A stretch of DNA of 32,285 bases. It comes from a virus. The notes beneath the pieces were generated by a model that worked only from the letters and a program-made list of their open reading frames with translations, did not search any database and was not told the DNA's origin. Where the stretch lies: IMG/VR virus record IMGVR_UViG_3300049893_000293, positions 1 through 32,285 of that record. The stretch is one strand, 5' to 3'. Every line of letters begins with the position of its first letter. Positions within the stretch are counted from its first letter, which is position 1. Shown piece by piece: positions 2 to 30,046 of the stretch. The translations under genes were made by a program, and so were the position numbers.

Positions 2-307
2 CCTAGCGATCCCCGGTACTACAATCATCGGGCGGAAATGTGGCTACTCGTCTACCACTGGCTGCGCCGTAGTGGCCGGCTTCCTATGAGTCAGGATCTA
101 AAGCGCGATCTAACCACGCCTCGGCACTTTACGACGGACAAGGGCCAGACGCAGCTTGAGAGCAAGGAAGACTTGAAGAAGCGCGGCATGAAGTCACCTG
201 ACTACGGTGATTCGCTAGCCCTTACATTCGCCATGCCAGTCCAGCCCCGTAGCTCATTGGAAGCCTCAGCCAAGCCACGCCACGATTGGGACCCCTTCGC
301 CGTTTGA
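2..307 (+). CDS. Terminase large subunit, C-terminal fragment
   Basis: This is the end of the ATP-driven packaging motor that moves DNA into the procapsid and cuts it with a C-terminal RNase H-fold nuclease. The open frame runs in from the left edge at base 2 with no start in the window. It reads PSDPRYYNHRAEMW at the edge, a conserved stretch of phage terminase nuclease domains, and then KSPDYGDSLALTFAMP near the end, which matches the last nuclease motif (SPD...D/A-L-A-L). An ATG at 38 lies inside the first motif and is not the real start. About 101 residues are present of a protein that is usually 450-600 long. The TGA stop overlaps the -35 element of the next promoter. The family call is firm; the subfamily cannot be decided from this fragment. 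Confidence 0.9.
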   Translation, partial: PSDPRYYNHRAEMWLLVYHWLRRSGRLPMSQDLKRDLTTPRHFTTDKGQTQLESKEDLKKRGMKSPDYGDSLALTFAMPVQPRSSLEASAKPRHDWDPFAV

Positions 308-331
308 CACTAACTCTCATCGGGTTAGTAT
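304..331 (+). promoter_or_regulatory. Sigma-70-like promoter, TTGACA-N16-TAGTAT
   Basis: A consensus -35 TTGACA (304-309) overlaps the terminase stop, followed after 16 bases by TAGTAT (326-331). The same 16-base spacing occurs at six further + strand sites. Unlike those, this one has a leader: transcription should start near 338-339, just at an AGGAG (339-343) that precedes the ATG at 354. A 6-bp inverted repeat (ACTAAC 309-314, GTTAGT 324-329) overlaps the -10. Confidence 0.6.
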
Positions 332-353
332 GCTCGTCAGGAGTTACTAGCTC

Positions 354-956
354 ATGGGATGGAAAGCACCTAAATGGAGTCCACCGAAGATCAATGCTTC
401 GGCTATTGAGGACAAGTACAACCGTGGACTAGAGAAGCCTGGTGCTAAGGCGCTGGACACAACCTTCTCGGATCAGCTCTGGAAAGATCCACGGGATGTT
501 CTAGGTGCGTGGGGCGATGTTGGACAGGGTGCTACGGCTGAAGGAATCAACGCTGCTCTAGGTGATACGACTACGGCTTATGTTGCAGATCATCAGCGTG
601 AAGCATGGCTTGCAGCCGCACTTGCTCTAGGTGGAGCTGGAGCGATTCAAGTAGGTATGACCGGCGGTGCTTGGGGTGGTATTGGAACAGCGGCAGGTGT
701 TGGTGCAGCTCTTGCAGGTGAAGCTCTTACGAAGAACCGAGTGGATGAGGCTCGCGCACAGTCCCGTGATCAGAGCAAACAAGACAATCCTCCCGATGTC
801 AACGAAGCCAACGACCCGCGTATGGCCGAGCAATTCCAGCGTCTACGCAAAGCCGCCCGTGGTCTAGGCCGGGCTGGTACAATCAAGTTCAAGGGTGCTG
901 CCAATCTTGGTGGAACCGATTCACTGGGTGATGCTCTCGCCCTGCAAGGTGCCTAA
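354..956 (+). CDS. Ala/Gly-rich protein between terminase and portal, 200 aa
   Basis: The function is unknown, but the position between large terminase and portal is typical for a small, probably virion-associated protein of podoviruses. The start at ATG 354 is supported by AGGAG at 339-343. Residues about 85-125 form a hydrophobic stretch rich in Ala and Gly (AAALALGGAGAIQVG onward), which may be a membrane-active or packed helical region. A charged segment rich in Arg, Asp and Asn follows. The tail, RLRKAARGLGRAGTIKFKG followed by LGD, resembles the Arg-rich RGRASTI...LGD ending seen in many unnamed phage proteins at this locus. The stop TAA shares its last base with the portal start (TAATG), so the two are probably translationally coupled. 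Confidence 0.8.
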   Translation: MGWKAPKWSPPKINASAIEDKYNRGLEKPGAKALDTTFSDQLWKDPRDVLGAWGDVGQGATAEGINAALGDTTTAYVADHQREAWLAAALALGGAGAIQVGMTGGAWGGIGTAAGVGAALAGEALTKNRVDEARAQSRDQSKQDNPPDVNEANDPRMAEQFQRLRKAARGLGRAGTIKFKGAANLGGTDSLGDALALQGA

Positions 957-2620
957 TGGACCAGACTGTACACGGCAAGATCCAATACCGGCTGTCCTGC
1001 ATGAAGGACCGTCGAGAGTCATTTGAGGATCATTGGCGGGAGATTGCCGAGTACATGATGCCTCGGGCGTACCGCTACCTAGATGAAGCCTGGGAAAAGC
1101 GCGGGAACAAGGCTAACAAGAAGATCATCGACCCGGCAGCTACAGTCTACTGCCGGGCTGCTGTAGCCTCGTTTATGTCGAACATCACGCCTCCTTCGCG
1201 CCCATGGAAGAAGCTCCGTAGCTTTGGCGAACTGTCCGATAACTACGAGGCGAAGACATATTTGGAAGCATCGTCCGAGATTATGGACGAGCATATTCTC
1301 AAGGCTAACTTCTATACCGAAGCGTCTAAGCTGTACGAATCCGTTATGGTATTCGGTACTGGTTGCATGCTGATTGAGGAAGACGACGAGACAGACTTCC
1401 GTTGTGAGGTTCTTCCTGTCGGTTCGTACTGGCTAGGCACAGACCACAAGCGCCGCGTTACTGAGTTCATGCGCGAAGTGGAAATGACAGCCTATCAAAT
1501 GGCCGAAGCCTTTGGTGAAGAAAACCTAAGTGAAACGCTGAAATCCTGCCTAAAGAGCGGGAACAGTGTCCACAAGGAAGTCCGCAAGGTATTGCACTAC
1601 ATTGGCGAGAACGAGTGCTACTGCGCTGATGCCCCGCTCGGTGGTCTTGAGTACCAGTCGATCTACATTGATCCGACCGACAACGACAAGAACCGGGTTC
1701 TTCGCCGTAGCGGTTATGAAGAGTTCCCGGTTGTAGCAGTTCGATGGAAGGCCACTGGCGACGACACATATGGCCTTGATTGCCCCGGCATGATGGCGCT
1801 CGGAAGTGTGAAGCAGTTGCAGCACGCGCAGAAGCAGTTGGCTAAGGCTGTTGAGAAGATGGTCAGCCCTCCGACACAGCGGCCGGAAGGTACGATCAAG
1901 AAGGGTGTGGACTCGACTCCAGGCGCAGACAATATAGTTACGCGTGGCGCGGCTGCTGACGGAATCCGCCCGCTCTATCAGATCAATTTTGATGTGCAGG
2001 CTGTGACGATGCTGATCCAAGATCTTCGGGATCAGATCGGCAAGATATTCTTCTACGACCAGTTCTTGATGGTTGCCAGCCAGCGCCGGTCAGGTACCAA
2101 GGCCCGTGAGATTGAAGAACTGCACGATGAGAAGATGCTCATTCTTGCGTCTGTATATGAGCAGTTCAGCAATGAGTTCCTTGATCCAGCGGTTAGCCGA
2201 ATCTACAGCATTCTCAATCGGCGTGGTCGTCTGCCTGTTGTTCCTGAGGTTCTTGCTGGCCGTGAGTTCACTATCGAGTATGTTTCGGTAATGGCCCAGG
2301 CTATGAAGCTGGTTGGCATCGGCAACATGGATCGGGCACTGGCGATCATGGCGCAGACAGCAAGCATCGATCCTACTTCGCTTGATCTTGTCAACATGCA
2401 GCGGTTTACGAAACAGTACTGGGAGCGCCTTGGTGTTGACTCCCGAATCATGTCGTCGCCTGACGAAATTGCACAGAAGGAAGAAGCGCGTGCCGCTTCG
2501 CTCCAGAAGGCTCAGACTCAGCAGCAGGCCACGGTTGAAGCCGAGACTGCCAAGATGCTGTCGGAGACGAAGACCGACGAGGACAACGCCCTGACGCAGA
2601 TCATGGGGAATACGCTGTGA
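956..2620 (+). CDS. Portal (head-to-tail connector), T7 gp8-like
   Basis: This is the portal protein, whose ring of twelve subunits forms the DNA channel at one capsid vertex, docks the terminase, nucleates head assembly and holds the tail. The 554-residue length is in the normal range for T7 gp8-type connectors. Recognisable family stretches are the N-terminal region with FEDHWREIAEYMMPR, the segment FMSNITPPSRPWKKL near residues 70-85, and KIFFYDQFLMVASQRRSGTKAREIEEL near residues 360-390. The C-terminus is rich in Gln, Ala and Glu, as expected for the barrel end. ATG 956 overlaps the preceding stop. The stop (TGA 2618-2620) overlaps the GTG start of the next gene. Confidence 0.95.
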   Translation: MDQTVHGKIQYRLSCMKDRRESFEDHWREIAEYMMPRAYRYLDEAWEKRGNKANKKIIDPAATVYCRAAVASFMSNITPPSRPWKKLRSFGELSDNYEAKTYLEASSEIMDEHILKANFYTEASKLYESVMVFGTGCMLIEEDDETDFRCEVLPVGSYWLGTDHKRRVTEFMREVEMTAYQMAEAFGEENLSETLKSCLKSGNSVHKEVRKVLHYIGENECYCADAPLGGLEYQSIYIDPTDNDKNRVLRRSGYEEFPVVAVRWKATGDDTYGLDCPGMMALGSVKQLQHAQKQLAKAVEKMVSPPTQRPEGTIKKGVDSTPGADNIVTRGAAADGIRPLYQINFDVQAVTMLIQDLRDQIGKIFFYDQFLMVASQRRSGTKAREIEELHDEKMLILASVYEQFSNEFLDPAVSRIYSILNRRGRLPVVPEVLAGREFTIEYVSVMAQAMKLVGIGNMDRALAIMAQTASIDPTSLDLVNMQRFTKQYWERLGVDSRIMSSPDEIAQKEEARAASLQKAQTQQQATVEAETAKMLSETKTDEDNALTQIMGNTL

Positions 2621-3420
2621 GCATACTGACTGGTACATTCACAACCACCGGGGATGTGTCTCCAGACCGCACACTAACCGTTGGTAAGCGTGTAGTCATC
2701 GCGCTCTGGGGAACTTGGACTGGCGTTGTTCGCGTGTGCGCTGGAGAGGCTACGGTAGCGTTCTGGACTGCCAATACGAACACGCAGCTGATTATTCCGC
2801 CAAGCATCAACAGCATTCATTTACATGCCGCACAGATTTCTAGCGGAACAGTCGGCTGGCGGCTTGAAGAATCTAACGACTTCGTGCGTCTTGGTGATCT
2901 TGAGTGGGAGGACTACCAGACTCCGGGGAGTGCTATCAATCCACCTGGAGCGGTATCTGATCCTGCCGTGGACTCTGTAGAGGCTGATTGGCCTGGCACC
3001 CTGTTGTTCTCAGCTAGCGCAACAAACATGGTTGCTGGAGTCTGGCAGATGCAGCATGCCTGGGCACAGGGCACCCCGATCCGTCCGCACATACACTGGA
3101 TGCAGACTGGAGCAAATGGAGGAAAAGCGGTTTGGCATCTGTACTACCGCAGAGTTAGCCGAACAGGCGCTAGCGAGGATTGGCAGGGTCCGGTTGTTGG
3201 TGCTGATGAGCTAACAACCGGTGGTATTGCGGACCGCGAAGGTATTACATCCTTTGGATCTATCGATCTATCAAGCACAACATCCCAAGCTGTAGGCTGG
3301 AAACTCTACCGTATGGGCGGTGACGGTGCCGACACTCTATCAACAACAGCCCGTCTAATGCACCTAGATTATCACTATCAGAAGGATAGTTTGGGCAGCG
3401 GAGCGGAGTACTTCAAATGA
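2617..3420 (+). CDS. Virion-associated RPHIHW-family protein, 267 aa
   Basis: This is a phage structural-type protein of unknown exact role. The GTG start at 2617 overlaps the portal stop (GTGA). Two parts can be seen. Residues 1 to about 85 are a beta-rich, Thr/Val-rich segment. From about residue 90 the sequence follows a family common in tailed phages: LGDLEWEDYQTP, then IRPHIHWMQT near residues 152-161, a Trp/Tyr-rich strand region (AVWHLYYRRVS), and the ending LDYHYQKDSLGSGAEYFK. Many relatives consist only of the second part, so the front part may be an added head-binding or decoration domain; that is inference. It sits in the head gene section, between the portal and Bbp19-like genes. 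Confidence 0.75.
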   Translation: MSILTGTFTTTGDVSPDRTLTVGKRVVIALWGTWTGVVRVCAGEATVAFWTANTNTQLIIPPSINSIHLHAAQISSGTVGWRLEESNDFVRLGDLEWEDYQTPGSAINPPGAVSDPAVDSVEADWPGTLLFSASATNMVAGVWQMQHAWAQGTPIRPHIHWMQTGANGGKAVWHLYYRRVSRTGASEDWQGPVVGADELTTGGIADREGITSFGSIDLSSTTSQAVGWKLYRMGGDGADTLSTTARLMHLDYHYQKDSLGSGAEYFK

Positions 3421-3686
3421 AGTACGATCCAGAAAGGGATCTTGATGAGGTTCTTCGTTCTGGAGCCGGCCGTCGAGTCATGGCCCGCATCGTTCGGAGT
3501 GGACTCGATAGCCCACCGTTTTGCAGCGATCCAGTCACCATGGGATACAACGCAGGAATGCAGCAGATCGCCCGTGACCTCGACAGATGGCTCAAGGCAG
3601 TCAACCTTGACGCATGGCTGCTCATGCACCGGGAGATTGCACAGGCCGAAGAAGATGACCAGGAGACATCCAATGCGGGAGAGTGA
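3417..3686 (+). CDS. Bbp19-like phage protein, 89 aa
   Basis: This resembles the Bbp19 family, first named from Bordetella phage BPP-1, whose members are short proteins found near portal and capsid genes. Supporting residues are the N-terminal RSGAGRRVMARIVRSG, the central TMGYNAGMQQIARDL and the late WLLMHREIAQAEED, matching the family pattern of a GR-V segment, an N-x-G motif and a final M..E helix. The ATG at 3417 overlaps the preceding TGA (ATGA). The molecular job is not established. The BPP-1-type capsid and cement genes downstream fit this assignment. Confidence 0.7.
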   Translation: MKYDPERDLDEVLRSGAGRRVMARIVRSGLDSPPFCSDPVTMGYNAGMQQIARDLDRWLKAVNLDAWLLMHREIAQAEEDDQETSNAGE

Positions 3687-3888
3687 CGCAGAGATTCTTC
3701 GTAGCCAGCTTGAGGCTAAAGAGAACAGGATTGCAGAGCTTGAGCTTGTAGTACAGAAGGTCGAGCGTGACCTTCTAGCTGCCCGCATGTGCGCCAATCG
3801 CTGGGAGCATGAGGCGAAGGCGGTTCGTAAGGAGTTGCAGCGCGTTAGGATGACATGCGACACTGATCGTTTGACCAAGAAGAAATAG
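3673..3888 (+). CDS. Small coiled-coil protein, 71 aa
   Basis: The protein starts MRESDAEILRSQLEAKENRI and continues as an almost unbroken charged helix (IAELELVVQKVERDLLAAR...WEHEAKAVRKELQRV), so a coiled coil covers nearly its full length. The start at ATG 3673 is favoured because AGGAG lies at 3661-3665 and the coiled-coil pattern begins there. A longer frame from 3442 would only read the Bbp19-like gene out of frame. It overlaps that gene by 14 bases. The role is unknown; such proteins can be assembly chaperones or tail/head accessory factors. The -35 of the next promoter lies inside its last codons. Confidence 0.7.
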   Translation: MRESDAEILRSQLEAKENRIAELELVVQKVERDLLAARMCANRWEHEAKAVRKELQRVRMTCDTDRLTKKK

Positions 3889-3898
3889 AAAGTACTAT
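3871..3898 (+). promoter_or_regulatory. Promoter TTGACC-N16-TACTAT, predicted leaderless start at 3905
   Basis: TTGACC (3871-3876) is followed after exactly 16 bases by TACTAT (3893-3898). Only six bases (CACGCC) separate it from ATG 3905, so the predicted transcript begins at or next to the start codon and no ribosome binding site fits. The -35 lies within the end of the coiled-coil gene. Confidence 0.6.
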
Positions 3899-3904
3899 CA
3901 CGCC

Positions 3905-4045
3905 ATGCTAGGTCTTGGTTTCGGAAACTTCTGTACGCGGATCGCCAGCAGCGTTCTGTTGTTTATTTTGCCAGGATCAGAGTTGACTAGCGAGACTACA
4001 GATACATTAACCACAGAGTCGGCAGACCCGATTACAACGGAATAA
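3905..4045 (+). CDS. Small ORF, 46 aa, first gene of a leaderless block
   Basis: This ORF begins MLGLGFGNFCTRIASSVLLF and ends in a Thr/Glu-rich tail (SETTDTLTTESADPITTE). Residues about 13-23 (IASSVLLFILP) are hydrophobic but short for a membrane helix. No Shine-Dalgarno is present. The case for a real gene is the promoter whose TACTAT ends six bases before the ATG, and the way the ORF fills an otherwise empty 159-base gap. Short proteins starting MLGLG are common in phage structural regions, and their role is not known. The stop is directly followed by the tail-fibre-like gene at 4048. Confidence 0.55.
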   Translation: MLGLGFGNFCTRIASSVLLFILPGSELTSETTDTLTTESADPITTE

Positions 4046-4047
4046 AT

Positions 4048-5097
4048 ATGCCTGTTGCCATTAGCGCCCTTCCAGCCGCATCAAGCATCGCCTTTGGTGA
4101 TGTTATTCCACTAGTCCAAGGTGGAGTAACAAAGAACGCAAATGTTTCTACTATCCCAACCTTGATGTGGGGAACGGCTGGAACTTGGACGACCGCGCAG
4201 ACCTTCCGCGCCGCGTCGGCGGTGCGCGCCGAGGCTGCTGCCACCCAGGACGCTGTTATCATCGCAGGCCGCGCTGGCGGCACTTCGTCATACGCGGTGT
4301 CGATCACCCCGACCACGCTGACCGCATCGCGCACGCTGACGCTACCGGACGCGAGCATCACCGTCGCCGGTTCTGCGTCTGCGCTGACTTCTGGACGCAT
4401 CCCCTACGCGACGACCGGAGGGCTGCTTACGGATAGTGCTGGCATGACCTACGACGGCACTTCGATGACGCTTACCGGTGCGTTGACAGTACCCAACGGA
4501 ACCGCCGCCGCTCCTGGTATTCGTATGACGAGTGAGGCGCATGGGCTATTTCGTGCGTCATCCACGAATCTCGGGCTAGCGGTCGCTGGCGCTGAAGCCC
4601 TGCGTTTCATATCACAGGGAGGAGGCTTTGGCGCGGCCATCCAGATCCAAGGCCCTGCCGCTGGGCGCTCGTACATCTACAACGGATGGAACGACGGTGC
4701 GCTGGAGATCTACGGTGGCTCGTCGTCTACTACAGGCGGACAAGTCAGACTCTACGGCAGCACCCACGCCACCAAAGCTAGCTATGTCGAGTTCACGAAC
4801 GGCAACACTGTACGCGGATACTTCAACGCCGCTGGCGATCTGAGCCTTTCCAGCACCACCGCCAGCACCACGACCGCCACCGGCGCTCTTGTGGTTGCTG
4901 GCGGGGTTGGCGTTGGCGGTGCGCTAGTGCTTGATGGAGGGGCAGGTGCCTCGCTTCGCGTCACCAACGGTGTTGCCAACGCTTCCGTTGCCACAACCCT
5001 TGGAAGCACAGGCCCGACTGGATCAACGGCCGGCGCACCTCAAGGGTGGATGCGTGTAAATGTCGGTGGAACCGACCGCTTTATCCCATACTGGTAG
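4048..5097 (+). CDS. Tail-fibre-like structural protein, 349 aa
   Basis: This looks like a fibre or spike protein made of beta repeats. The N-terminus (MPVAISALPAASSIAFGDVIPLV...) matches the start of many phage fibre-type proteins. The middle is Gly/Ser/Thr/Ala-rich with strand-like repeats such as TTLTASRTLTLPDASITVAG. Residues about 270-295 carry TTASTTTATGALVVAGGVGV, a repeat frequent in phage fibres. The end, GWMRVNVGGTDRFIPYW, resembles the closing strand of many fibre and head-fibre proteins. No intramolecular chaperone or enzyme motif is visible. From about base 4180 the gene is clearly more G+C-rich than its neighbours, with many C/G-ending codons, suggesting acquisition from elsewhere. 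Binding to a host receptor is inference. Confidence 0.7.
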   Translation: MPVAISALPAASSIAFGDVIPLVQGGVTKNANVSTIPTLMWGTAGTWTTAQTFRAASAVRAEAAATQDAVIIAGRAGGTSSYAVSITPTTLTASRTLTLPDASITVAGSASALTSGRIPYATTGGLLTDSAGMTYDGTSMTLTGALTVPNGTAAAPGIRMTSEAHGLFRASSTNLGLAVAGAEALRFISQGGGFGAAIQIQGPAAGRSYIYNGWNDGALEIYGGSSSTTGGQVRLYGSTHATKASYVEFTNGNTVRGYFNAAGDLSLSSTTASTTTATGALVVAGGVGVGGALVLDGGAGASLRVTNGVANASVATTLGSTGPTGSTAGAPQGWMRVNVGGTDRFIPYW

Positions 5098-5127
5098 GCT
5101 CTTGACTTATTCTTGCAAGAACAGAGC
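5098..5127 (+). promoter_or_regulatory. Inverted repeat directly before ATG 5128
   Basis: TTCTTGCAAGAA (5110-5121) is a perfect 12-base palindrome, flanked by GCTCT (5098-5102) and AGAGC (5123-5127). The dyad fills the gap between the fibre stop and the 52-residue ORF. No U-tract follows, so it is not a typical intrinsic terminator; an operator or RNA processing hairpin is possible. Confidence 0.4.
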
Positions 5128-5286
5128 ATGCCAGACATGGAAAACTTCCAGGCTTTGATCGGTGTCCTAAACGCGGCTCTTGAGCATGTGCCCGAACACA
5201 CGCGACTTCTGCTGGCTAATGCTGCCAAACCGCACGCGGATGCTCTAGCTGAGAAACTGAAGCCAACAGATGTGCAGCCTGCTTAG
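5128..5286 (+). CDS. Small hypothetical protein, 52 aa
   Basis: The ORF reads MPDMENFQALIGVLNAALEH and then a helical stretch (TRLLLANAAKPHADALAEKL) with a short PTDVQPA tail. It looks like two amphipathic helices with no membrane segment. It fills a 172-base gap between the fibre-like gene and the lipoprotein gene, and its last 17 bases overlap the latter. No strong Shine-Dalgarno is present (only AGAG close to the ATG). I do not recognise the family. It is listed because it fits the tight gene packing. Confidence 0.5.
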   Translation: MPDMENFQALIGVLNAALEHVPEHTRLLLANAAKPHADALAEKLKPTDVQPA

Positions 5287-5581
5287 GCTGCTGGTACCGA
5301 TTTTTCTTGTTGGATGCACCACGCACCTTAACCAAGGTGCTAGGGCGGATGTGTGGATCCGTGACGATCTGCCGCGTGGAGTAAACGGTACACACTCGCC
5401 AAAAACGGGCTGCATTTCAATCCGCTACGGACTAGACCAGCGTGAGACTACGCGGGTTGCGATGCATGAGTTTGTCCACGCATGCGAGAATAATCCGAGA
5501 ATGAGGCCGCGTGAGGTATTGCGCTTGTACGCTACTAAGGAATGGAACGCCATGCGATCCGACCTTGAACCGATTGAATAA
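5270..5581 (+). CDS. Predicted lipoprotein with HExxH zinc-binding motif, 103 aa
   Basis: The N-terminus MCSLLRLLVPIFLVGCTT is a short lipoprotein signal with lipobox L-V-G-C at residues 13-16, so the mature protein should be anchored by lipidated Cys16, probably at the outer membrane. Residues 62-72 read RVAMHEFVHAC, giving H66-E67-F-V-H70, the HExxH signature of zinc metallopeptidases. The third ligand is not obvious; Glu83 and Glu91 are candidates. The motif sits in a predicted helix, as expected. The protein is small, so it may be a minimal peptidase or a degenerate binding protein. ATG 5270 lies within the end of the 52-residue ORF. A function in host-surface change or superinfection control is speculation. 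Confidence 0.65.
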   Translation: MCSLLRLLVPIFLVGCTTHLNQGARADVWIRDDLPRGVNGTHSPKTGCISIRYGLDQRETTRVAMHEFVHACENNPRMRPREVLRLYATKEWNAMRSDLEPIE

Positions 5582-5601
5582 CAGGATACAAGGACACCAC
5601 T

Positions 5602-5979
5602 ATGGTATTCAAGACTCAGCTTAGCGAAGACATTCCCGTAATGCCAGACAATGCCTTTGTCTACAACAGCGTGGTTGTACCGGATTCTGGTGGCGCTGCC
5701 GTAACTCTGCGTACTGCGATCCTGGCTCTTTCTGGCGGTGCTATCCCAACTAAGCCTATTATCGGTGGGTGGCTGATCCCGGCTTCTGGTGGCGTGGCCG
5801 CTACCATCATGTTCTCGCAGATCGGTGACACACCGCTGACTACCAACGCTGGCGGTGGCAAGATCACGATTGCAGCCGGGGCCACATTTGACCTTCTGCC
5901 TAGCGATCCGCTGGATAAGGTGTGGTTGATTTCGTCTGGCGCAGCTAGCACTTGCACGCTGGTTCTCTGGACTGACTGA
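5602..5979 (+). CDS. Small beta-rich virion-type protein, 125 aa
   Basis: The function is not known. AAGGA at 5590-5594 supports ATG 5602. The sequence is rich in Gly, Ala, Thr and Val (VVVPDSGGAAVTLRTAILALSGG, GGKITIAAGATFDLLPSDPLDKVWLISSGAASTCTLVLWTD), with alternating strand-like segments and no signal peptide or membrane helix. The end, a strand with KVWLISSGAAS, resembles small beta-sandwich proteins that decorate phage heads or fibres. It lies in the fibre/accessory section just before another small beta protein, and the gene after it has its own promoter. Confidence 0.7.
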   Translation: MVFKTQLSEDIPVMPDNAFVYNSVVVPDSGGAAVTLRTAILALSGGAIPTKPIIGGWLIPASGGVAATIMFSQIGDTPLTTNAGGGKITIAAGATFDLLPSDPLDKVWLISSGAASTCTLVLWTD

Positions 5980-5987
5980 TACACTGG

Positions 5988-6015
5988 TTGACGGTAGGGC
6001 CACCTAGACTAGACT
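5988..6015 (+). promoter_or_regulatory. Promoter TTGACG-N16-TAGACT, predicted leaderless start at 6023
   Basis: TTGACG (5988-5993), 16 bases, TAGACT (6010-6015), then seven bases (AGGTGGC) and ATG 6023. Transcription should start at the A of the ATG or a base before it. The AGGTGG could look like a ribosome binding site but touches the ATG too closely to work as one. The -10 lies within a perfect inverted repeat. Confidence 0.6.
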
Positions 6016-6022
6016 AGGTGGC
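5999..6022 (+). promoter_or_regulatory. Perfect 9-bp inverted repeat over the -10, abutting ATG 6023
   Basis: GCCACCTAG (5999-6007), six-base loop ACTAGA, CTAGGTGGC (6014-6022). The right arm ends on the base before the start codon, and the dyad covers the TAGACT -10. It could be an operator for a repressor. In read-through RNA from upstream promoters it would form a hairpin that touches the start codon. No U-tract is present. Confidence 0.6.
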
Positions 6023-6379
6023 ATGCCTACGATTCAGCATGCGCCTGTAACCTTGCCTACATGGCAAGACTTTGATGGTGTTCGCGTGCGCCAGTGGACT
6101 CCGATGGCCCTTGGGGATGTTGGCGAGCCGATCATCCTGGCCCGATTCAACGACAAGACGGTGCAGGTGTCAGGCAACTTCGGGGCTGGGGGCAAGGTAG
6201 TGCTAGAAGGCAGTATTGATGGTGTCAACTACGCGCCAATCAAGAGTGTCTTCGGTGGAACGTTGGAACTGACTAGCGCCCAGCTCCAGACCATCACTGA
6301 AGTTCCGGTCTACATGCGTCCGAACATCACAGCGGGCGATGGGACGACTTCGCTAACCGTTTCGATTCTGGTGCGCTAA
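6023..6379 (+). CDS. Small beta-sandwich virion protein, 118 aa
   Basis: This matches a widespread family of small phage proteins found near fibre and capsid genes. The visible signature is VQVSGNFGAGGKVVLEGSIDGVNYAPI at residues about 49-75, then ELTSAQLQTITEVPVYMRPNITAGDGTTSLTVSILVR. This is the usual pattern of a G-x-FG-x-GG strand, an EGS-DG turn and an RP...TAGDGTTS ending. The exact role is unproven; decoration of the head or a fibre base is likely. Start ATG 6023 is set by a promoter ending seven bases upstream and the absence of a Shine-Dalgarno at normal spacing. The stop TAA overlaps the next ATG (TAATG). Confidence 0.75.
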   Translation: MPTIQHAPVTLPTWQDFDGVRVRQWTPMALGDVGEPIILARFNDKTVQVSGNFGAGGKVVLEGSIDGVNYAPIKSVFGGTLELTSAQLQTITEVPVYMRPNITAGDGTTSLTVSILVR

Positions 6380-6849
6380 TGGTAGACACGGCCCGCCTCA
6401 AGAACCTCGTTGAGATTCTTCGTCCGCTCACAGAGTTAGTGCCGGTTCTTGAGCGTGTGGAGAACGCAGAGCAGAGCATCCGGTCGGCCGAGGCCCAGGC
6501 AGCTAAGATTAAGGAAAAGTCTGATGCCATCCTCGCCCGTGCAGATCGCTTAGACGCAGAACTTATTGCGCGTAACGCTTCGATCGCCAAGCGTGAGGAA
6601 GCGGCCGAAAAGGCGTGCGAGGACTTAAAGGCTATTGCGGCAAAGGAAGTAGCAGCCATCAAGCAGGAGGCCGAGGAATACGACGACCGACTGCGTAAAT
6701 CAGCTGATGTACTTCTAGCCAATGCAGAGGCAGAAGCTAAGAGCATTGGCCTGCGGATTGCTGACAAGCGCAAAGAAGCTGACGCTCTGGACGCACGGAT
6801 CGCAAAAGCAAAAGAACAACTCAAGCGCATGCTTGGGGCTGCGGAGTGA
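6379..6849 (+). CDS. Long coiled-coil protein, 156 aa
   Basis: The protein is almost entirely a charged alpha helix rich in Ala, Glu, Lys and Arg, for example ENAEQSIRSAEAQAAKIKEK at about residues 28-47 and KAKEQLKRMLGAAE at the end. A parallel coiled coil of roughly 130 residues is the simplest reading. It is coupled to the preceding gene by TAATG and is followed three bases later by the SGNH tail protein gene. A structural or assembly role linked to the tail protein is inferred from the context only; it could be a trimeric connector or a chaperone. Confidence 0.7.
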   Translation: MVDTARLKNLVEILRPLTELVPVLERVENAEQSIRSAEAQAAKIKEKSDAILARADRLDAELIARNASIAKREEAAEKACEDLKAIAAKEVAAIKQEAEEYDDRLRKSADVLLANAEAEAKSIGLRIADKRKEADALDARIAKAKEQLKRMLGAAE

Positions 6850-6852
6850 AGC

Positions 6853-9942: not shown

Positions 9943-9943
9943 T

Positions 9944-10033
9944 ATGCTCATCTTCTTCTGGCTTGGATCGTCTGATGTCGGCCCTGTCGGCGCAGGCCCG
10001 ATCTGGTGGTTACGCCGCCGTCGCCGTCAATAG
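9944..10033 (+). CDS. Very small ORF, 29 aa, with WWLRRRRR tail
   Basis: The ORF reads MLIFFWLGSSDVGPVGAGPI and ends WWLRRRRRQ. Its ATG lies two bases past the preceding stop. The composition (short hydrophobic head, Gly/Pro centre, aromatic and Arg-rich end) resembles tiny proteins seen in other phage structural regions. No ribosome binding site or TANNNT promoter precedes it, so translation would rely on coupling. It occupies most of the 136-base gap before the scaffold gene. Confidence is limited by its size. Confidence 0.35.
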   Translation: MLIFFWLGSSDVGPVGAGPIWWLRRRRRQ

Positions 10034-10043
10034 AGAAACTATA

Positions 10044-10071
10044 TTGACCCTTGCGCGGTGAGTCATACACT
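10044..10071 (+). promoter_or_regulatory. Promoter TTGACC-N16-TACACT, predicted leaderless start at 10079
   Basis: TTGACC (10044-10049), 16 bases, TACACT (10066-10071), then GACCGCC and ATG 10079. It would drive scaffold, capsid and cement genes up to the terminator at 12191-12230. An imperfect inverted repeat (GCGGTGAGT 10055-10063 with ACTGACCGC 10069-10077, eight of nine pairs) is centred on the -10. Confidence 0.65.
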
Positions 10072-10078
10072 GACCGCC

Positions 10079-10642
10079 ATGCCTGACGAGGTTCCTACTA
10101 ACACCCCACCCCCTGCCCCGGCTGGTGAAACCAATCCGGCCGTTGCTACACCGCCTCCCGAAGCTAAGGTTGATCCGAAGGTACAGCTAGAAAAGATGTG
10201 GGCTGACTTCAAGGATCCCGAAGGCTATGACAAGACCAAGTTTCAAGACGCCAAGGACTTTGCCAAGAAGCTAGGTCTTCCGCCCCAGGCAGCCGTTGTG
10301 CTGGCCGAGCGTGAGAAGGCCCTGTCCGCAAAGGAAGATGCGGAATACAAGTATCTACAGGAAAAGGGCTGGCTAGAGGAATTGCAGAAGGATAAGGAAT
10401 TGGGTGGCGAGAAGTCGCGTGAAACAATGGTCGATGTGATGCGCGCCCATGACAAGTTGCCGCCAGAGACTCAGCAGATGATTAAGGAACATGGCGTACT
10501 CTACAACCCAGTGGTTGTCCGCATCCTGCATGCTATCGGCAAGCAGCAAAAAGAAGACACCTTTGTCCGGCCTGGGGCTGCTCCTGGGCAGGAACAGAAA
10601 AAGAGCCTAGATGAGCGTCTCATCGGGCTATTCAACAAATAA
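10079..10642 (+). CDS. Capsid scaffolding protein, 187 aa
   Basis: This is the assembly scaffold that fills the procapsid and leaves before DNA is packaged. It lies directly before the major capsid gene, the usual order. The N-terminus is Pro/Thr/Ala-rich and probably disordered (PTNTPPPAPAGETNP). The rest is acidic-basic helix rich in Lys and Glu. Scaffold-type features include the AKKLGLPPQAAVVLAEREKAL helix, WLEELQKDKELGGEKS, and KEHGVLYNPVVVRILHAIGK near residues 140-160, followed by a charged tail ending LIGLFNK. The start is placed at ATG 10079, not GTG 10058, because the longer reading would begin upstream of the -10 hexamer that ends seven bases before this ATG. Confidence 0.85.
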   Translation: MPDEVPTNTPPPAPAGETNPAVATPPPEAKVDPKVQLEKMWADFKDPEGYDKTKFQDAKDFAKKLGLPPQAAVVLAEREKALSAKEDAEYKYLQEKGWLEELQKDKELGGEKSRETMVDVMRAHDKLPPETQQMIKEHGVLYNPVVVRILHAIGKQQKEDTFVRPGAAPGQEQKKSLDERLIGLFNK

Positions 10643-10657
10643 ACAAGGAATTAGCCA

Positions 10658-11695: not shown

Positions 11696-11737
11696 CCCTG
11701 ACACAAATAACAAAGAAACACAAGGAATAATACTCAA

Positions 11738-12175: not shown

Positions 12176-12190
12176 TCTGCTGTAGTCCCG

Positions 12191-12230
12191 AACGACCCGC
12201 AGGGCACTTGCCTTGCGGGTCGTTTCTTTT
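12191..12230 (+). terminator. Intrinsic terminator after the head genes
   Basis: A 14-pair stem joins 12191-12204 (AACGACCCGCAGGG) and 12211-12224 (CCTTGCGGGTCGTT) with one G-T pair and a six-base loop, followed by TTTCTTTT. The position after the capsid and cement genes and before tail tubular protein A matches that of the T7 T-phi terminator after gene 10, and would lower downstream tail gene expression relative to capsid. The right side overlaps the next promoter. Confidence 0.9.
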
Positions 12231-12235
12231 ACTAT
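12208..12235 (+). promoter_or_regulatory. Promoter TTGCCT-N16-TACTAT embedded in the terminator
   Basis: TTGCCT (12208-12213) lies in the loop and right arm of the terminator, and TACTAT (12230-12235) starts at its last T. The spacer is 16 bases. Eight bases separate the -10 from ATG 12244. This would restart transcription for the tail and ejection genes. The same TTGCCT form occurs at 18093. Confidence 0.55.
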
Positions 12236-12243
12236 GGTGCCAA

Positions 12244-18078: not shown

Positions 18079-18092
18079 ATGGCGGGGCCCCG

Positions 18093-18120
18093 TTGCCTAG
18101 CGTCTGACAAGCCCTATATT
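18093..18120 (+). promoter_or_regulatory. Promoter TTGCCT-N16-TATATT, predicted leaderless start at 18128
   Basis: TTGCCT (18093-18098), 16 bases, TATATT (18115-18120), then CTAGGGC and ATG 18128. No ribosome binding site fits in the seven bases. It lies in the 49-base gap between the gp15- and gp16-like genes and would drive the giant ejection protein gene alone or with what follows. Confidence 0.6.
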
Positions 18121-18127
18121 CTAGGGC
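18111..18127 (+). promoter_or_regulatory. Inverted repeat over the -10, abutting ATG 18128
   Basis: GCCCTA (18111-18116), five-base loop, TAGGGC (18122-18127). The dyad includes most of the TATATT hexamer, and its right arm ends on the base before the start codon. This is the same geometry as at 5999-6022 but a different sequence, so a shared repressor site is unlikely. Confidence 0.55.
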
Positions 18128-21100
18128 ATGCCTGACCCTCTTGATCCCATGGACCCGGTAGCCATTGCGGAGGCTGCCAAGCTCATCACGCCAGAGGATG
18201 CCACTTACCTGTCAAAGCGGTCTGCCGAACTAGGCATACCGGCAAACCTGCACGGGGCTGATGTAAGCGAGGTCAAGCGGATATGGGAAAGCGGTGCCCA
18301 CACGGACGAGTTCCGCCGGGCGTTCCCGACACCGGAAGCCGTTAGCTGGGCTCGTGATGCCTATAACGCTTCTAAGGTCCAAAAGAACCTTGGTCAGATC
18401 GTCGGACTGCGGGAAGCTGCCAAGAAGCTAGACCTCCCCGACGCGGCTGGACTGCACAACATCGCTTGGGCGCAGATCAAGCACTCGGCGAAGGCCGCCG
18501 GCATGGGACTTGCCATGATCCCGGCTGCCGTGGCGTCTGGTGGTGTGGCCCTTGGAAACCTTACGCGGGACTCTGGCGACGAACTTGAGCTTCCTATTCT
18601 GTGGCTAGCCAAGCAGGCCGATGACGAACTTGATGCCTTCAACCAGGAAGCGTACGACATTCGCCAGCGGCACTACGCCACGGGTGGCAACACCTTCCAG
18701 GCGGTTGTAGGAAGCGTCATGGGAAGCCTGCCAGAATCGCTAGCAAGCGGCGTAGGCGCTGGTTTGTTGGCCAAGTCGGGCGTAGCCCTAGCCACCGGGA
18801 CTTTCGTGCGTGGAGCGGCTTTGCCGGCCATTACTGGGGCACGCCAGGCTATGGCACTTCGGGCGGCGGTCATCATCAGTGGTGCCCAAGAGGGTACCAC
18901 TGGTGTCGTCCAGCGCATGAAGGAGAACGAGACAGAGGGCAATGACCTTCTGCGCCCACAAGACATTGCCTACGGCTTGGCTGTGGCAGCCACGGTCATC
19001 GGGTCAGAGCTTCTAGGTGGTGCCCGTGGTGAGTTCGCATCACTTGGGGGGTCGGCAGCCATCAAGTCGATGCGCCGTGAGCTTGGCAAGGACTTGGCGA
19101 TCCAGGTCGGGCAAGAGGGCTTCCAAGAGGGTGCCCAGCAGATCCTTGACGATGTGACCAAGAACCAGGTTCCTCTGTGGTCGGAAGTCGGCTGGGCTAC
19201 CTTGGGCGGCATGATGGCTGGCGGTGCGTTCACACTGCCCTCTGTTGGCCACTACGCCTCGTTGGTCCAGACCGAGAAGAAGGTCAAGGCACTTGAGGGC
19301 ATGCAGGCCCTGTTGCCTAACATGGCAAATGCGCCTTCGGTGGTGACGAACGCCAACGGCATTGCGAACATGGTTACGGTACTGAACCAGGGAAGTCTGC
19401 CAGAGCGTCTGGCCGACAACGAACTGATTCAGTTGATGCATACAGAGGGCCGGGTCCAGGCTAGCAACCAGTCGTTCACGATGGCCGACTGGTCTGCCCT
19501 GGCTCAGATGCTCGGAAAGGACGAAGCGGCCCTGGCGGCTTCGTGGGGCGCGAAGCGGGAAGCTGGAATGGTCAGCATCGACACGGCAACGCTGATTGTA
19601 CACGCTCGTAAACTAAAACCTGCTGAGTTTGAAATGGTTGTGGATAGCGTGCGGTCTGCGCCTGACAAGCAATCGCTCAAGGACTTGTCGGATACGGCCA
19701 AGCAGTACGAGGAAATTGCGAAGAAGATTTCCGACGAGTACAATTCTCCTAAGTTGCCAGACGGTACCGATGACGATTCAGACCTACTGGTAGATGAACT
19801 AGCTGGACAGATCCAGTTCGCAGCCGAGGGGGCTAAGGCAAAGATCACACAGAGCCAAGCCCGTGCGTCTGCCAAGATCCAAGCCGCAATGGCTCGGACG
19901 GCTGCCATTTCGTTCAACGCCGCTGCCACAAAGTCTGGGGGTTCCAAGATCACGCCTAAGCAACTCTGGGAGAAGTATGGGGCGAAGTTCGGTACAACCG
20001 AGCATAACCTTGACAAGCGCGCCGACTATGATGCGGCAAAGGCTGTCGTTCTGTTGAAGTCAGTATCGGATGTGACTTCCGTAAACCACGAACTAATGCA
20101 CCACTGGCTAGAAATGCACAGACTGTGGGTGTCTGACGCGAACGCACCTGCTGAAATTAAGCAGATCGTTGCCGATATCGGTTCGTGGGCAGATGCCAAT
20201 GCTAAGAAGTTGTCTGGCGGTAATGCTGCAACTGAAGCACAGATCCGTCTGTATGCTTCGGATATGACCAAGCTAGACCTAACGCAGCCGGGTGGCGTGG
20301 CTATCCATGAGGCTCTAGCGACTCAGTACGAGCAGTACCTAAAGAGCGGAAAGCCGCCAACCAACGCACTACGCAACGCCTTTGCTTCGATGCGTAAGTG
20401 GTTCCAGAAGATCTACGGTTCGCTTATCGGTCAGGTAGATCCTGAGCTAGAGAAGGTCTTCGTAAAGATGATCGTCAGCGAAGGCGAGGCGAAGCGCCTG
20501 TCGCTTGAGTTAGATCCTAGGGCCTTGGGCATTTCGGAAGACCGTGCGCTATGGATCGAGAACACATTCCAGAAGGAACTGTCGGAAGCCGCTACTCTGG
20601 CGCGGGTGAAGTACGAGGCGAGGGAGAAGGCAGCTAACTCGGCCGAGCGGAAGCGTGAAGTAAAAGCTGAAATGGAGTATTTGAACAATCAAGATCCGGT
20701 CTGGAAGGCTAGCGCAGCACTACTGACAGGAAACGCTGCCGACAAGCTAGACGAGTCGGCCGTTATGGCGTTCCTAAAGCAGTCTGGAAAGCTGCACATG
20801 GCTGGCAGTCTACAGCGTTTCATGGCTAAGGGCGGCGGTAGATCTGACATTTCAGTGCTGGCCGTTGGACTTAACTACCCTGATGCCGACGCAATGTTGA
20901 CTAGCTTGGCTGCTAATAGCATGACGCTTGAGGAAAAGGCAGAGCAGAATGTGGATACGAAGCACGCAACAGATGGCGAGACTCCTGAGAGCCAGATTGC
21001 GGATGCCGAGCTTCGTGCGCTGATTGCACAGGAACAGTCGGTTGCGCTTCGTCGTGTAATCCGTCTTGGCAAGCAGGCCGATAAGTCCGAGGCTAAGGCA

Positions 21101-24100
21101 GCGGTCACTTCTGAAAGGATGGACGCCATCAAGGCTGAGTGGAAGAAGAAGCGGGATGATCTAGCGTCACGCTATAAGCTACAGAACGAGGGATGGGATA
21201 CCGACCGCCAGGTAATGCTGCGTGAAATGTCGCAAGACCAAGAGAAGTCCATTGCTGATGCAGCAGCCTATCGCCTGGCAGAAGGTGAGAAACCGTCGCC
21301 TGACAAGATGGCAGAGCTTGGACTCAAGATCGCAAAGCTCGGGTCTAGCGGTGACTTCGCGGGGGCCATTGATGCGTACATGAAACTGCAAGTCTACGCA
21401 GAAATGCAGAACCAGTTGAAGACCGACACGATTGAAGCCGTGCGTACTAAGGCCGTGCTTGAAATGCAGGTACTGAACCAGGTGATGTACGAGCGGGTTT
21501 CCAAGATGCCGGCAAAGGACATTCGCCCGCACCGCGCTATGCAATTGGCTAGCGCGGCACGGAAGCGCCGTGAAATCGCCATTGCAAAGCAGGACATTGC
21601 GAGCATTGAGCTTGAGTCCCGGAACATCGCAGCCGCCGAGGCATTCCACGCTGCGCTAGAGCAGATGGTGATTCAGCGCAAGGAGTCGCTGACTATTATC
21701 GAGAACGGTACAAGCCCCGCTAATCTGACGAATATGTCAACCTCGGGCAAGCCGAAGGTCATTGACAACAAGGGTGTGACTACCTACTTCGATAGCTACA
21801 AAGAAGCTGAAATGTACTATGACAGTATCGGAGGCGAGCGTAATGCCGCCGTGTTCGATACATCACGCGACCTATGGAATCTTGGAACGGCGATCCGTGA
21901 GCTAATCACTTCGACCAAGATCACTGACCGGAGAAACGCACGCCTCAAGCTACAGGAAATGGTAGTCGGAAACATCGAAGGTGGATCGTCAATGTCCTGG
22001 GAGTTCCGCAAGCTAGTGGAAACCAAGGGGCTTGATCCTAGCTCTTGGACCGTCGCAGACTGGGACACCGTGCGCCGTCAGGTTGAATGGCTGAACCATG
22101 AGGCTAAGACTCGGCCAGAGCTTATGGCCTTCATTGCTGAGGCAGCCGCCGACATGGCGAGCGTGAAGCGTCTGATCGACCATTCGCCGCACAAGCAGCG
22201 CGACGATATGAACTCTGTTGAGGAAGTGGCCTGGACACTAAGCGAGTCTAACGCCAATCTGCGTACACTGCTGCGCCACTTCGACGACGGCGGTAAGAAT
22301 CTTGGTGATAGGTACATCATGCGCCCGCTACTTGATGCACAGGTAGCCGAGCAGGGAATCCGTAAGCATGTACTTCGCATCACGGAGCCAGCGTTTGCCG
22401 CATTTACTGCGGCTGAACGCAAGGCCCTAGACACCAAGTATACCGTTGAAGGCATAAAGACGGACGGCATGGAGCGCCTAGTTCGCCTGTCTCTGTGGGG
22501 CACTCAGTCAGGCCGTCAGCGTGTGCAGCAGGATCTAGCTGTGCGCTTTGCTGATCTAGGGATCAAGGACGCTAAGGTCATCAAGGCTAAGACGGCTGCG
22601 TTCCTCGATAACATGCTCAGGCCAGGAAGCATTTCAGCCAAGGAAGCCGACTTGGTTGATGCTATGTGGCAGGCCAACGAGGTTCTGTGGAAGTACACCG
22701 ATTCTGCTGCTAATCGTACTGGAACGCCTCACGCTAAGAAGTTGCCTAACTACGAGTATCGGATTCAGATGGCTGACGGGTCGATCCGTATCATGTCTGG
22801 CGGATATGCAGCCGTTCCGTACATCGGAACCAGCTTCGCTATCGATCTGCTGGCTGGAGATTCAGTCAACAAGCAGGCCCTGTTGGATCTAGGCTTCACT
22901 GAGGAACGCATGGATAGCGTTTCCGGTAAGATGCTGGACCTTGGGATAGATGCTCAGGGCAACAGTATGTGGGCAAGGGCTCATACAGCGGCTTACCTAC
23001 CTGTGGTCAAGACGGTTGGCGGTCTGATCTATAACAACCAGTTCCAGTCAGCAGCCCGCACGCACCTTGGTCAAGACTACTTGAATGATCTACAGGAAAA
23101 GATCACCACGGTAATCAACGGGGTGAAGCCGCCTCCGACATGGATTGCCATTCCGTTCAAGGCTATGGGAACGGCCGTGTTCGCTGCAAACATCACCACG
23201 GCGGTCAAGCAGCCTCTTGGCATTATCTCGTCGGCCGGGCATCCTGAGATTTCTACGCTAGCTCTAATGGCGGCTTATGCCAAGTTCCTGAGCAACCCAC
23301 GAGAAGTGTCTAGATACGCGGCCAACGCATCTGGTATTATGGAGAATCGCCGAGAGGCATTCGATATCGATACCGCACCAGACGCCGAAAAGATTGGACG
23401 CACTAAACTTACTGATAAGTACATTCATTCTCTATCGTGGCCTATACGAATGGCTCAGTACTTCGGTGCTGATATAATTACATGGACGGCCGCCCACGAT
23501 AGCACGCTAGCCAAGCAACTCGCCATGGGTGTGCCTATGGACAAGGCTAGGTACGAGGCACGCAAGACCGCAGACCGCATACTACATGAGACGCAGGGCT
23601 CTGCCATGATCGCAGAGCAGGCAAAGGTCAACGATACAGCCTGGGGCAAGCTATTCACCTTCGCTGGTAAGTGGGTCATCAATAACGCTAATCTGATGTA
23701 CCGACTGACAGCAGACTTGAAGCGTGAGCCTACATTTGAGAACGCTAGCAAGCTGGCGAAGGCTTCGTTGTTTAGCGTTATCCTGTCATCGGGTGCCATG
23801 GTCGCTGCCAGCGCACTATTGCAGCCCGAGAAGGACGACGAGGAAGAACGCGATCTTTCGGACTACGCAATCCGTACCGCTCTAGATGTGTCCACCCAGC
23901 CGATGTGGATTCTGCGCTCGGTACTACCGATGGTCTACGAGGAAATGTGGGGCGTTCCTGCCATTGCAACTCGGGCTACTGGCAACCTTGCAACCTCGCT
24001 TTACGACCCTCCGAGCAAGCTGGTTAAGCAGATAAAGAAGTGGTCAGTTGACGATAGTGCGTTCTCCATTGAGCGCACCATCGGTGCAGCCGTGGGTACT

Positions 24101-24238
24101 GGCGCACTCGTAATCCCAGGCATTCCAGCCGTCCAGTTCAACCGGCTCATGGAAGCCATCGAAGCCTCACCAGAAGCCGGCTGGGAAGCGTTCGTCGCCG
24201 CCGTCTTCGGCTGGGATAAGACCATCCGCCGGGATTGA
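18128..24238 (+). CDS. Giant ejection protein (gp16-like position) with HELMH motif, 2036 aa
   Basis: The place after gp14- and gp15-like genes and the very large size point to the main ejected core protein that enters the host with the DNA. T7 gp16 is about 1318 residues and begins with a transglycosylase; no such domain is evident here. Residues about 115-370 contain several Gly/Ala-rich hydrophobic stretches (GMGLAMIPAAVASGGVALG, GVGAGLLAKSGVALATG). At residues 654-658 lies HELMH, in NHELMHHWLEM, an HExxH zinc peptidase signature. Residues about 950-1200 are highly charged helix. The last 350 residues resemble the ends of other large phage proteins sometimes grouped as polyvalent proteins. 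The start is set by the promoter just upstream. Proteolysis of host or phage proteins on entry is a hypothesis. Confidence 0.85.
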   Translation: MPDPLDPMDPVAIAEAAKLITPEDATYLSKRSAELGIPANLHGADVSEVKRIWESGAHTDEFRRAFPTPEAVSWARDAYNASKVQKNLGQIVGLREAAKKLDLPDAAGLHNIAWAQIKHSAKAAGMGLAMIPAAVASGGVALGNLTRDSGDELELPILWLAKQADDELDAFNQEAYDIRQRHYATGGNTFQAVVGSVMGSLPESLASGVGAGLLAKSGVALATGTFVRGAALPAITGARQAMALRAAVIISGAQEGTTGVVQRMKENETEGNDLLRPQDIAYGLAVAATVIGSELLGGARGEFASLGGSAAIKSMRRELGKDLAIQVGQEGFQEGAQQILDDVTKNQVPLWSEVGWATLGGMMAGGAFTLPSVGHYASLVQTEKKVKALEGMQALLPNMANAPSVVTNANGIANMVTVLNQGSLPERLADNELIQLMHTEGRVQASNQSFTMADWSALAQMLGKDEAALAASWGAKREAGMVSIDTATLIVHARKLKPAEFEMVVDSVRSAPDKQSLKDLSDTAKQYEEIAKKISDEYNSPKLPDGTDDDSDLLVDELAGQIQFAAEGAKAKITQSQARASAKIQAAMARTAAISFNAAATKSGGSKITPKQLWEKYGAKFGTTEHNLDKRADYDAAKAVVLLKSVSDVTSVNHELMHHWLEMHRLWVSDANAPAEIKQIVADIGSWADANAKKLSGGNAATEAQIRLYASDMTKLDLTQPGGVAIHEALATQYEQYLKSGKPPTNALRNAFASMRKWFQKIYGSLIGQVDPELEKVFVKMIVSEGEAKRLSLELDPRALGISEDRALWIENTFQKELSEAATLARVKYEAREKAANSAERKREVKAEMEYLNNQDPVWKASAALLTGNAADKLDESAVMAFLKQSGKLHMAGSLQRFMAKGGGRSDISVLAVGLNYPDADAMLTSLAANSMTLEEKAEQNVDTKHATDGETPESQIADAELRALIAQEQSVALRRVIRLGKQADKSEAKAAVTSERMDAIKAEWKKKRDDLASRYKLQNEGWDTDRQVMLREMSQDQEKSIADAAAYRLAEGEKPSPDKMAELGLKIAKLGSSGDFAGAIDAYMKLQVYAEMQNQLKTDTIEAVRTKAVLEMQVLNQVMYERVSKMPAKDIRPHRAMQLASAARKRREIAIAKQDIASIELESRNIAAAEAFHAALEQMVIQRKESLTIIENGTSPANLTNMSTSGKPKVIDNKGVTTYFDSYKEAEMYYDSIGGERNAAVFDTSRDLWNLGTAIRELITSTKITDRRNARLKLQEMVVGNIEGGSSMSWEFRKLVETKGLDPSSWTVADWDTVRRQVEWLNHEAKTRPELMAFIAEAAADMASVKRLIDHSPHKQRDDMNSVEEVAWTLSESNANLRTLLRHFDDGGKNLGDRYIMRPLLDAQVAEQGIRKHVLRITEPAFAAFTAAERKALDTKYTVEGIKTDGMERLVRLSLWGTQSGRQRVQQDLAVRFADLGIKDAKVIKAKTAAFLDNMLRPGSISAKEADLVDAMWQANEVLWKYTDSAANRTGTPHAKKLPNYEYRIQMADGSIRIMSGGYAAVPYIGTSFAIDLLAGDSVNKQALLDLGFTEERMDSVSGKMLDLGIDAQGNSMWARAHTAAYLPVVKTVGGLIYNNQFQSAARTHLGQDYLNDLQEKITTVINGVKPPPTWIAIPFKAMGTAVFAANITTAVKQPLGIISSAGHPEISTLALMAAYAKFLSNPREVSRYAANASGIMENRREAFDIDTAPDAEKIGRTKLTDKYIHSLSWPIRMAQYFGADIITWTAAHDSTLAKQLAMGVPMDKARYEARKTADRILHETQGSAMIAEQAKVNDTAWGKLFTFAGKWVINNANLMYRLTADLKREPTFENASKLAKASLFSVILSSGAMVAASALLQPEKDDEEERDLSDYAIRTALDVSTQPMWILRSVLPMVYEEMWGVPAIATRATGNLATSLYDPPSKLVKQIKKWSVDDSAFSIERTIGAAVGTGALVIPGIPAVQFNRLMEAIEASPEAGWEAFVAAVFGWDKTIRRD

Positions 24239-24262
24239 CCGGCCTAACCTACAAGGTATCGT
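24235..24262 (+). promoter_or_regulatory. Promoter TTGACC-N16-TATCGT, predicted leaderless start at 24269
   Basis: TTGACC (24235-24240) overlaps the stop of the giant ejection gene. After 16 bases comes TATCGT (24257-24262), then AAGCCC and ATG 24269. It would drive the fibre-type gene and the two lysis-type genes behind it. Confidence 0.6.
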
Positions 24263-24268
24263 AAGCCC

Positions 24269-25042
24269 ATGACTATCAGCACCGAGACGATTCGTGCCAG
24301 CTATTCTGGCAACGGGTCAACGCAGAACTTCGCGTACACCTGGCCCATATGGGACGATGATGAATTGCTGGTATACTCGGTTGTGACCGCTACTGGAGTT
24401 GAGACGCTACAGACCAAGACGACTCACTACACTGTTACAGGTGTAGGCGCTAACGCTGGCGGGAATGTGGTCATGGTGACTGCACCAGCTACTGGAACCA
24501 CGCTGGTCATTAAGGCCACGATTCCGTTCAAGCAGGAAGCAGACCTAGTTAACGAGTCGTCGAACTTTCTTGAGAGTATTGAGCTAGGTCTTGACAAGGC
24601 GCAGCGTCAGGCTGCTGTAGCCAACGAGAAGGCTATACGCGGGTTGCAGTTGCCGGAAGCGGAAGCAACAAGTTCCACCAAGACCGTTGTACCTGCGCTA
24701 GAGGAACGCAAGGGTAAATACCTTTATTTCGATGCATCCTCTGGTCAGCCGATGGTACAGGCCTTCTCTATTCCTGCTGGAGCCTCGCTTCACGGAACCA
24801 AGACTTGGAACACAGGTACTATCGGTGCAGGAAGCTATGTCTGGACCAATATCACAATCAGTGGTGCGGCTGTAGGTGATACCGTGGTTGTCACGCACAA
24901 GAGCGCACAATCGGCTGGATCAGTAATTCCAAGCGGATATGTAAACGCAGCCAACACCGTGTTTATCTTCCTGTTTAATGTTGGTGGATCTGTTACACCA
25001 CCGTCAGACACCGCGTATGTTCGTGTCATCAAACAGGGATAA
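24269..25042 (+). CDS. Fibre-type protein with T7-tail-fibre-like N-terminal domain, 257 aa
   Basis: The first 140 residues match the head-binding domain of T7-like tail fibres and related adhesins: IRASYSGNGSTQNFAYTWPIWDDDELLVYSVV, then TKTTHYTVTGVGANAGGNVVMVTAPATGTTLVIKATIPFKQEADLVNES and a short helical LDKAQRQAAVANEKAIRG. Such domains attach fibres to the tail. The C-terminal part from about residue 175 (WNTGTIGAGSYVWTNITISGAAVGDTVVVTHK...YVRVIKQG) is a small beta domain found at the end of other phage virion proteins. At 257 residues it is much shorter than T7 gp17 (553), so it may be an adaptor that carries another receptor-binding protein, such as the SGNH protein. That link is inference. 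Confidence 0.8.
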   Translation: MTISTETIRASYSGNGSTQNFAYTWPIWDDDELLVYSVVTATGVETLQTKTTHYTVTGVGANAGGNVVMVTAPATGTTLVIKATIPFKQEADLVNESSNFLESIELGLDKAQRQAAVANEKAIRGLQLPEAEATSSTKTVVPALEERKGKYLYFDASSGQPMVQAFSIPAGASLHGTKTWNTGTIGAGSYVWTNITISGAAVGDTVVVTHKSAQSAGSVIPSGYVNAANTVFIFLFNVGGSVTPPSDTAYVRVIKQG

Positions 25043-28069: not shown

Positions 28070-28071
28070 CG

Positions 28072-30045: not shown

Positions 30046-30046
30046 A

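Follow-up and report, generated by a model that had tools for sequence, protein, structure and literature searches.

Probable leaderless expression of late units from sigma-70-type promoters in an epsilon15-like podovirus and its close relatives

Late gene blocks in an epsilon15/phiV10-like podovirus are very probably headed by sigma-70-type promoters that drive leaderless mRNAs. The window, meaning the whole stretch of DNA analysed here, is one IMG/VR virus record of 32,285 bases. In the arrangement we propose, its late rightward half would consist of transcription units with a bacterial sigma-70-type promoter (TTG(A/C)C, 15-16 bases, TANNNT) at the head of each. The -10 element of six units lies 6-8 bases ahead of the start codon and would place the transcription start at the A of the ATG or no more than a base or two from it; host ribosomes would then initiate from the 5' end of these block-head messages, and genes inside the units would be translated via Shine-Dalgarno (SD) sequences or stop-start overlaps. 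We infer that the host enzyme reads these promoters, that 5' ends lie at the ATG and that the units are expressed late; host polymerase alone may well be sufficient at the block heads.

Phage identity and the seven promoter-like sites

Judged by its portal (phrog_332), major head (phrog_212), protease/scaffold-like and tail tubular A and B proteins, the window phage belongs to the epsilon15/phiV10-like podoviruses. It has the portal, capsid and tail tubular homologues of Uetakevirus and relatives, arranged in the same order, whereas none of this wider group outside the clade described below has its promoter set. Virion genes are among the rightward genes (354-25651), while the leftward genes (25907-32188) include those for a DNA polymerase, RusA, a YqaJ-like recombinase, an RNA ligase and a primase-family fragment. 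The record is cut off at the far end of the leftward region, so that phage early genes past 32188 are missing. The RNA ligase gene (PF09414) occupies 30400-30972 on the minus strand, within the leftward replication operon, and the 2036-aa product of gene 18128, which is without a Pfam match, is probably an internal virion protein.

The initial annotation had described seven sites with a spacer of exactly 16 bases and, at six of them, -10-to-ATG gaps of 6, 7, 7, 8, 7 and 6 bases; all seven read letter for letter as described, and the gaps are correct. The features are as follows.

304-331, plus strand: promoter TTGACA-N16-TAGTAT; led, with the SD AGGAG at 339-343 ahead of ATG 354
3871-3898, plus strand: promoter TTGACC-N16-TACTAT; 6 bases to ATG 3905 (46-aa ORF, gene 4048 next)
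5988-6015, plus strand: promoter TTGACG-N16-TAGACT; 7 bases to ATG 6023; kept in L175/G002 and L228
10044-10071, plus strand: promoter TTGACC-N16-TACACT; 7 bases to ATG 10079 (scaffold/protease-like gene); kept in L171, L173, L177 and L228
12190-12232, plus strand: intrinsic terminator, 16 pairs (10 G-C) and T tract; sequence in common with the 12208 promoter
12208-12235, plus strand: promoter TTGCCT-N16-TACTAT; 8 bases to ATG 12244 (tail tubular A); -35 inside the loop of the terminator (12190-12225)
18093-18120, plus strand: promoter TTGCCT-N16-TATATT; 7 bases to ATG 18128 (2036-aa protein); kept in L177 and L179 with a 5-base gap
24235-24262, plus strand: promoter TTGACC-N16-TATCGT; 6 bases to ATG 24269 (tail fibre N-terminus); kept in L179 with N15

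At sites 304 and 24235 the upstream gene ends within the -35 (stop codons TGA 305-307 and TGA 24236-24238), and promoters that overlap upstream coding ends in this way make for a very compact arrangement.

Comparison with shuffled sequence, which the initial annotation had proposed as a check, leaves a clear excess. Against 300 dinucleotide shuffles of the window, TTG(A/C)C-N16-TANNNT was observed 7 times on the plus strand (shuffle mean 0.56, maximum 3), and with an ATG 6-8 bases downstream 6 times (0.023 in shuffles); among spacers from 8 to 29 bases, that of 16 is the outlier. No excess came from a generic sigma-70 scan that allowed spacers of 16-18 at any position (9 vs 9.1 expected, 5 vs 9.5), which indicates that the signal consists of the rigid spacer and the fixed position relative to the ATG. 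A second class, TTGAC-N11-TANNNT, was considered and dropped: of its four plus-strand matches, three fall within genes and the remaining one is site 5988.

Start codons and conservation within the clade

Pairing with the anti-SD is weaker at the six starts (mean -3.1 kcal/mol) than at other starts (-5.1 kcal/mol, p = 0.024), and at ATG 6023 the AGGTGG directly abuts the start codon, too close to work as an SD, which agrees with the earlier view that these starts lack a usable SD. The other starts show a good SD or a stop-start overlap, again as had been described for genes within blocks, and in those relatives that were examined the capsid gene has AAGGAA-type SD sites. The -10 ends, with its last T, 5-8 bases ahead of the start codon, the layout of bacterial leaderless genes of the TANNNT type, and the usual initiation point would accordingly be on or beside the A of the ATG; “leaderless” is assigned here from this layout, in which a leader of 1-5 nt looks the same as none. 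Of 16 such sites, 13 have C at -1, two have T and one has A, and a pyrimidine is thus found in 15 of 16 as against 11 of 25 other starts (p = 0.001); the C at -1 is compatible with initiation on the start codon itself, in the usual pyrimidine-purine context. Structure just after the ATG was not reduced in the leaderless genes (p = 0.23).

N-termini are conserved in relatives at five of the six starts, among them 24269 (MTISTETIR/MTIPTTTIR), 12244 (TAICNLALLRIGI) and both 10079 and 18128 (MPD/MPE), and the 24269 protein aligns to tail families from their position 1. Since these N-termini are conserved at the same ATGs, the start codons of the leaderless genes are, on this comparison, correctly called, with the exception of the uncertain 3905. 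For that 46-aa ORF no homologue was seen and no ortholog is covered in the relatives, and it is the least certain of the six.

The clade comprises uncultivated relatives (L171-L179 and L228) that were found with capsid and tail tubular B as queries; capsid identity within it is 73-80% where the capsid is covered, and the next relatives fall to 44%. Single-protein searches with the portal and the DNA polymerase returned no close relatives. Orthologs of four block heads (6023, 10079, 18128 and 24269) show the layout in 10 of 12 cases, which near-duplicates among the relatives reduce to about eight independent ones, compared with 1 of 43 at internal-gene orthologs (Fisher p = 2e-8) and a background rate of 0.8% over all ATGs. 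The layout is kept at block heads and not at internal genes; this conservation and the excess over shuffles run counter to two of the outcomes that the initial annotation had named as refuting it. Even the sole internal-gene match is a gene that has become a block head: in L177 the ortholog of 24269 was not found, and the next gene is now at the head of the block, with TTGACT-N15-TACTAT-7-ATG.

The individual elements vary in sequence around a nearly constant geometry, with a spacer of 16 in 21 of 23 sites. Gene 10079 orthologs carry TTGCTT-N16-TAGCAT-6-ATG (L171), TTTACA-N16-TATATT-6-ATG (L173) and TTGCAA-N16-TAGCAT-6-ATG (L177 and L228); those of gene 6023 carry TTGACC-N16-TATATT-6-ATG (L175) and TTGCAC-N16-TAGTAT-6-GTG (L228); those of gene 18128 carry TTGCTT-N16-TAACCT-5-ATG (L177) and TTGCCC-N16-TATTAT-5-ATG (L179); and that of gene 24269 carries TTGAAA-N15-TAGGAT-6-ATG (L179). 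Both exceptions come from L175 and the near-identical G002, in which the scaffold gene has TTGAAA-N16-TATAAA and an SD leader. The conservation in related phages that had been suggested as a check was thus found at the block heads of close relatives, but it is not universal in the clade, given the led scaffold gene of L175/G002 and a 12208 promoter that is leaderless only in the window phage. Among about 270 more distant epsilon15-like loci there was never more than one match per locus, and distant relatives (35-44% capsid identity), considered as carriers, lack the motif set. The promoter layout is, as read from these loci, specific to a narrow clade.

Alternative readings, host and known systems

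What we count in favour of leaderless block heads is the number of sites with an adjoining ATG (6 vs 0.023), ortholog conservation, the C at -1, the conserved N-termini, the weak SD pairing, the shift in L177 and the clade specificity; on the other side are the led scaffold gene of L175/G002 and the fact that none of the bacterial clades sampled has the layout at a comparable density. That the sites are chance or compositional matches picked by eye agrees with the lack of excess in the generic sigma-70 scan, yet it is contradicted by the start-codon-constrained count and by the ortholog conservation at p = 2e-8, and we give it almost no credence. It is also very improbable that the sites serve chiefly to terminate transcripts or, as hairpins at gene ends, to process RNA, with the promoter-like letters as by-products. 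Site 12208 does overlap a strong conserved terminator, and the -10 lies within a strong hairpin at 6023 (z -3.4) and at 10079 (z -2.9), but the other sites are without such hairpins, these are not conserved in relatives (mean z -0.8), and even the 12208 composite retains the -35/-10 spacing.

A different objection concerns the enzyme. The leaderless promoters could be real but read only by host RNA polymerase together with a phage-encoded factor (sigma-like or RNAP-binding), which would fix the N15-16 spacing and the late specificity. The near-invariant spacer of 16 and a layout density far above that of any sampled bacterial genome speak for such a factor, which could be encoded among the early genes missing past 32188; however, both hexamers are ordinary sigma-70-like elements and no factor was recognised among the scanned proteins, and we regard this reading as unlikely. 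The initial annotation had proposed host-type polymerase instead of a T7-type polymerase. This was the wrong contrast, because the phage is epsilon15-like and belongs to a group where a T7-type RNA polymerase is not expected; none was seen in nine records, which are incomplete genomes and for which the search control gave no match.

Promoter density was also considered as a guide to the host. In a bacterial sample made up of Alphaproteobacteria, Gammaproteobacteria, Gemmatimonadota, the phylum of L156 and 20 single genomes, and leaving out Deinococcota, typical Actinobacteria and Acidobacteria, a narrower pattern (TTGAC, gap 6-7) occurs at most 18 times per genome, against 3 exact matches and further variants in the 32 kb here. 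No sampled clade comes near the density of the window phage, and the genome labelled Actinomycetota behind L156 gave no match. A tentative and somewhat doubtful extension of the preferred reading, that of sigma-70-type promoters with leaderless late mRNAs, is that the whole clade moved nearly all late-unit heads to leaderless translation via a dedicated N15-16 promoter class, which would imply either a move into a phylum of hosts in which leaderless genes abound, or a change of translation initiation that the phage imposes late in infection.

The cI mRNA of phage lambda, transcribed from PRM, is a leaderless phage message off a sigma-70 promoter. It serves a single regulatory gene, whereas the window phage would use such messages for late structural units. 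Two papers mention leaderless initiation in lambda (PMC3160421; PMC9031893). In Deinococcus-Thermus and Actinobacteria, leaderless genes are known to be marked by a TANNNT adjoining the start codon (PMC3160421), and this mark has been tested by experiment in Deinococcus (PMC12340547). The likeness lies in a TANNNT a few bases ahead of a start without SD; those examples, however, are cellular genes, most of which in Deinococcus are without a -35, whereas in the window phage and its clade one is always present at 15-16 bases. In the Thermus phage phiYS40 most middle and late mRNAs are leaderless, a trait tied to altered levels of IF2 and IF3 (PMC3594737). There too late genes are read by host-type machinery, as the sequence suggests for the window phage, but phage and host are unrelated, and the window sites have strong -35 boxes and occur only at block heads.

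Leaderless phage messages are therefore already known from phiYS40 and lambda cI, and the novelty would be a clade-wide variant at late block heads; leaderless late block heads with a strong -35 across a clade of epsilon15-like podoviruses were not found in the limited literature searched. As leaderless late phage expression is documented mainly for phiYS40, a conserved case that can be read from sequence in a large podovirus group would allow led and leaderless relatives to be compared ortholog by ortholog, and so to ask why a phage drops leaders. The layout would also aid start-codon calling in such phages and help to narrow down the host.

Variant sites and further occurrences

The led site 304 departs from the other six, in that AGGAG, its own SD, would form the 5' end of the transcript; the arrangement is kept at L176:840 as TTGCCT-N16-TATCCT-ATCACC-AGGAG. 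At site 12208 the -35 lies in the terminator loop (GGGC-TTGCCT) and is followed by the T tract and then the -10, so that one short sequence would end one unit and start the next. Stem, loop, spacing and -10 of this composite are kept in seven relatives, with stem letters that vary in a pairing-compatible manner, and in L172 the terminator is kept with no TANNNT at N16. The composite spans 12190-12243 in the window, L171:2390-2440, L173:3355-3402, L177:6130-6175 and L228:8615-8662. In seven of eight relatives it is followed by a gene of about 108 codons with an SD, with tail tubular A close behind; this extra gene has the 11738 ortholog on one side and tail tubular A on the other (L171:2474-2800, compared with window 12176-12243). 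In the window phage it is absent, so that the 12208 promoter abuts tail tubular A and is leaderless, whereas in the relatives the following gene is led.

The inverted repeats near the -10 at 5999-6022 and 10055-10077 end at, or one base ahead of, the ATG, and may serve as operators or, in read-through transcripts, occlude the start. As a common feature of the sites, a hairpin around the -10 was rejected, since only these two stand out and relatives do not keep them.

Outside the virion blocks, a putative HNH-type endonuclease gene in L227 (G002; ATG 2046 on the reverse complement) also has the leaderless type of layout, TTGACT-N15-TATACT-6-ATG, and on the same strand two TTGACA(T/C)CTTGCAAGA copies lie at 172-190 and 662-680, in short gaps between genes upstream of the terminase region.
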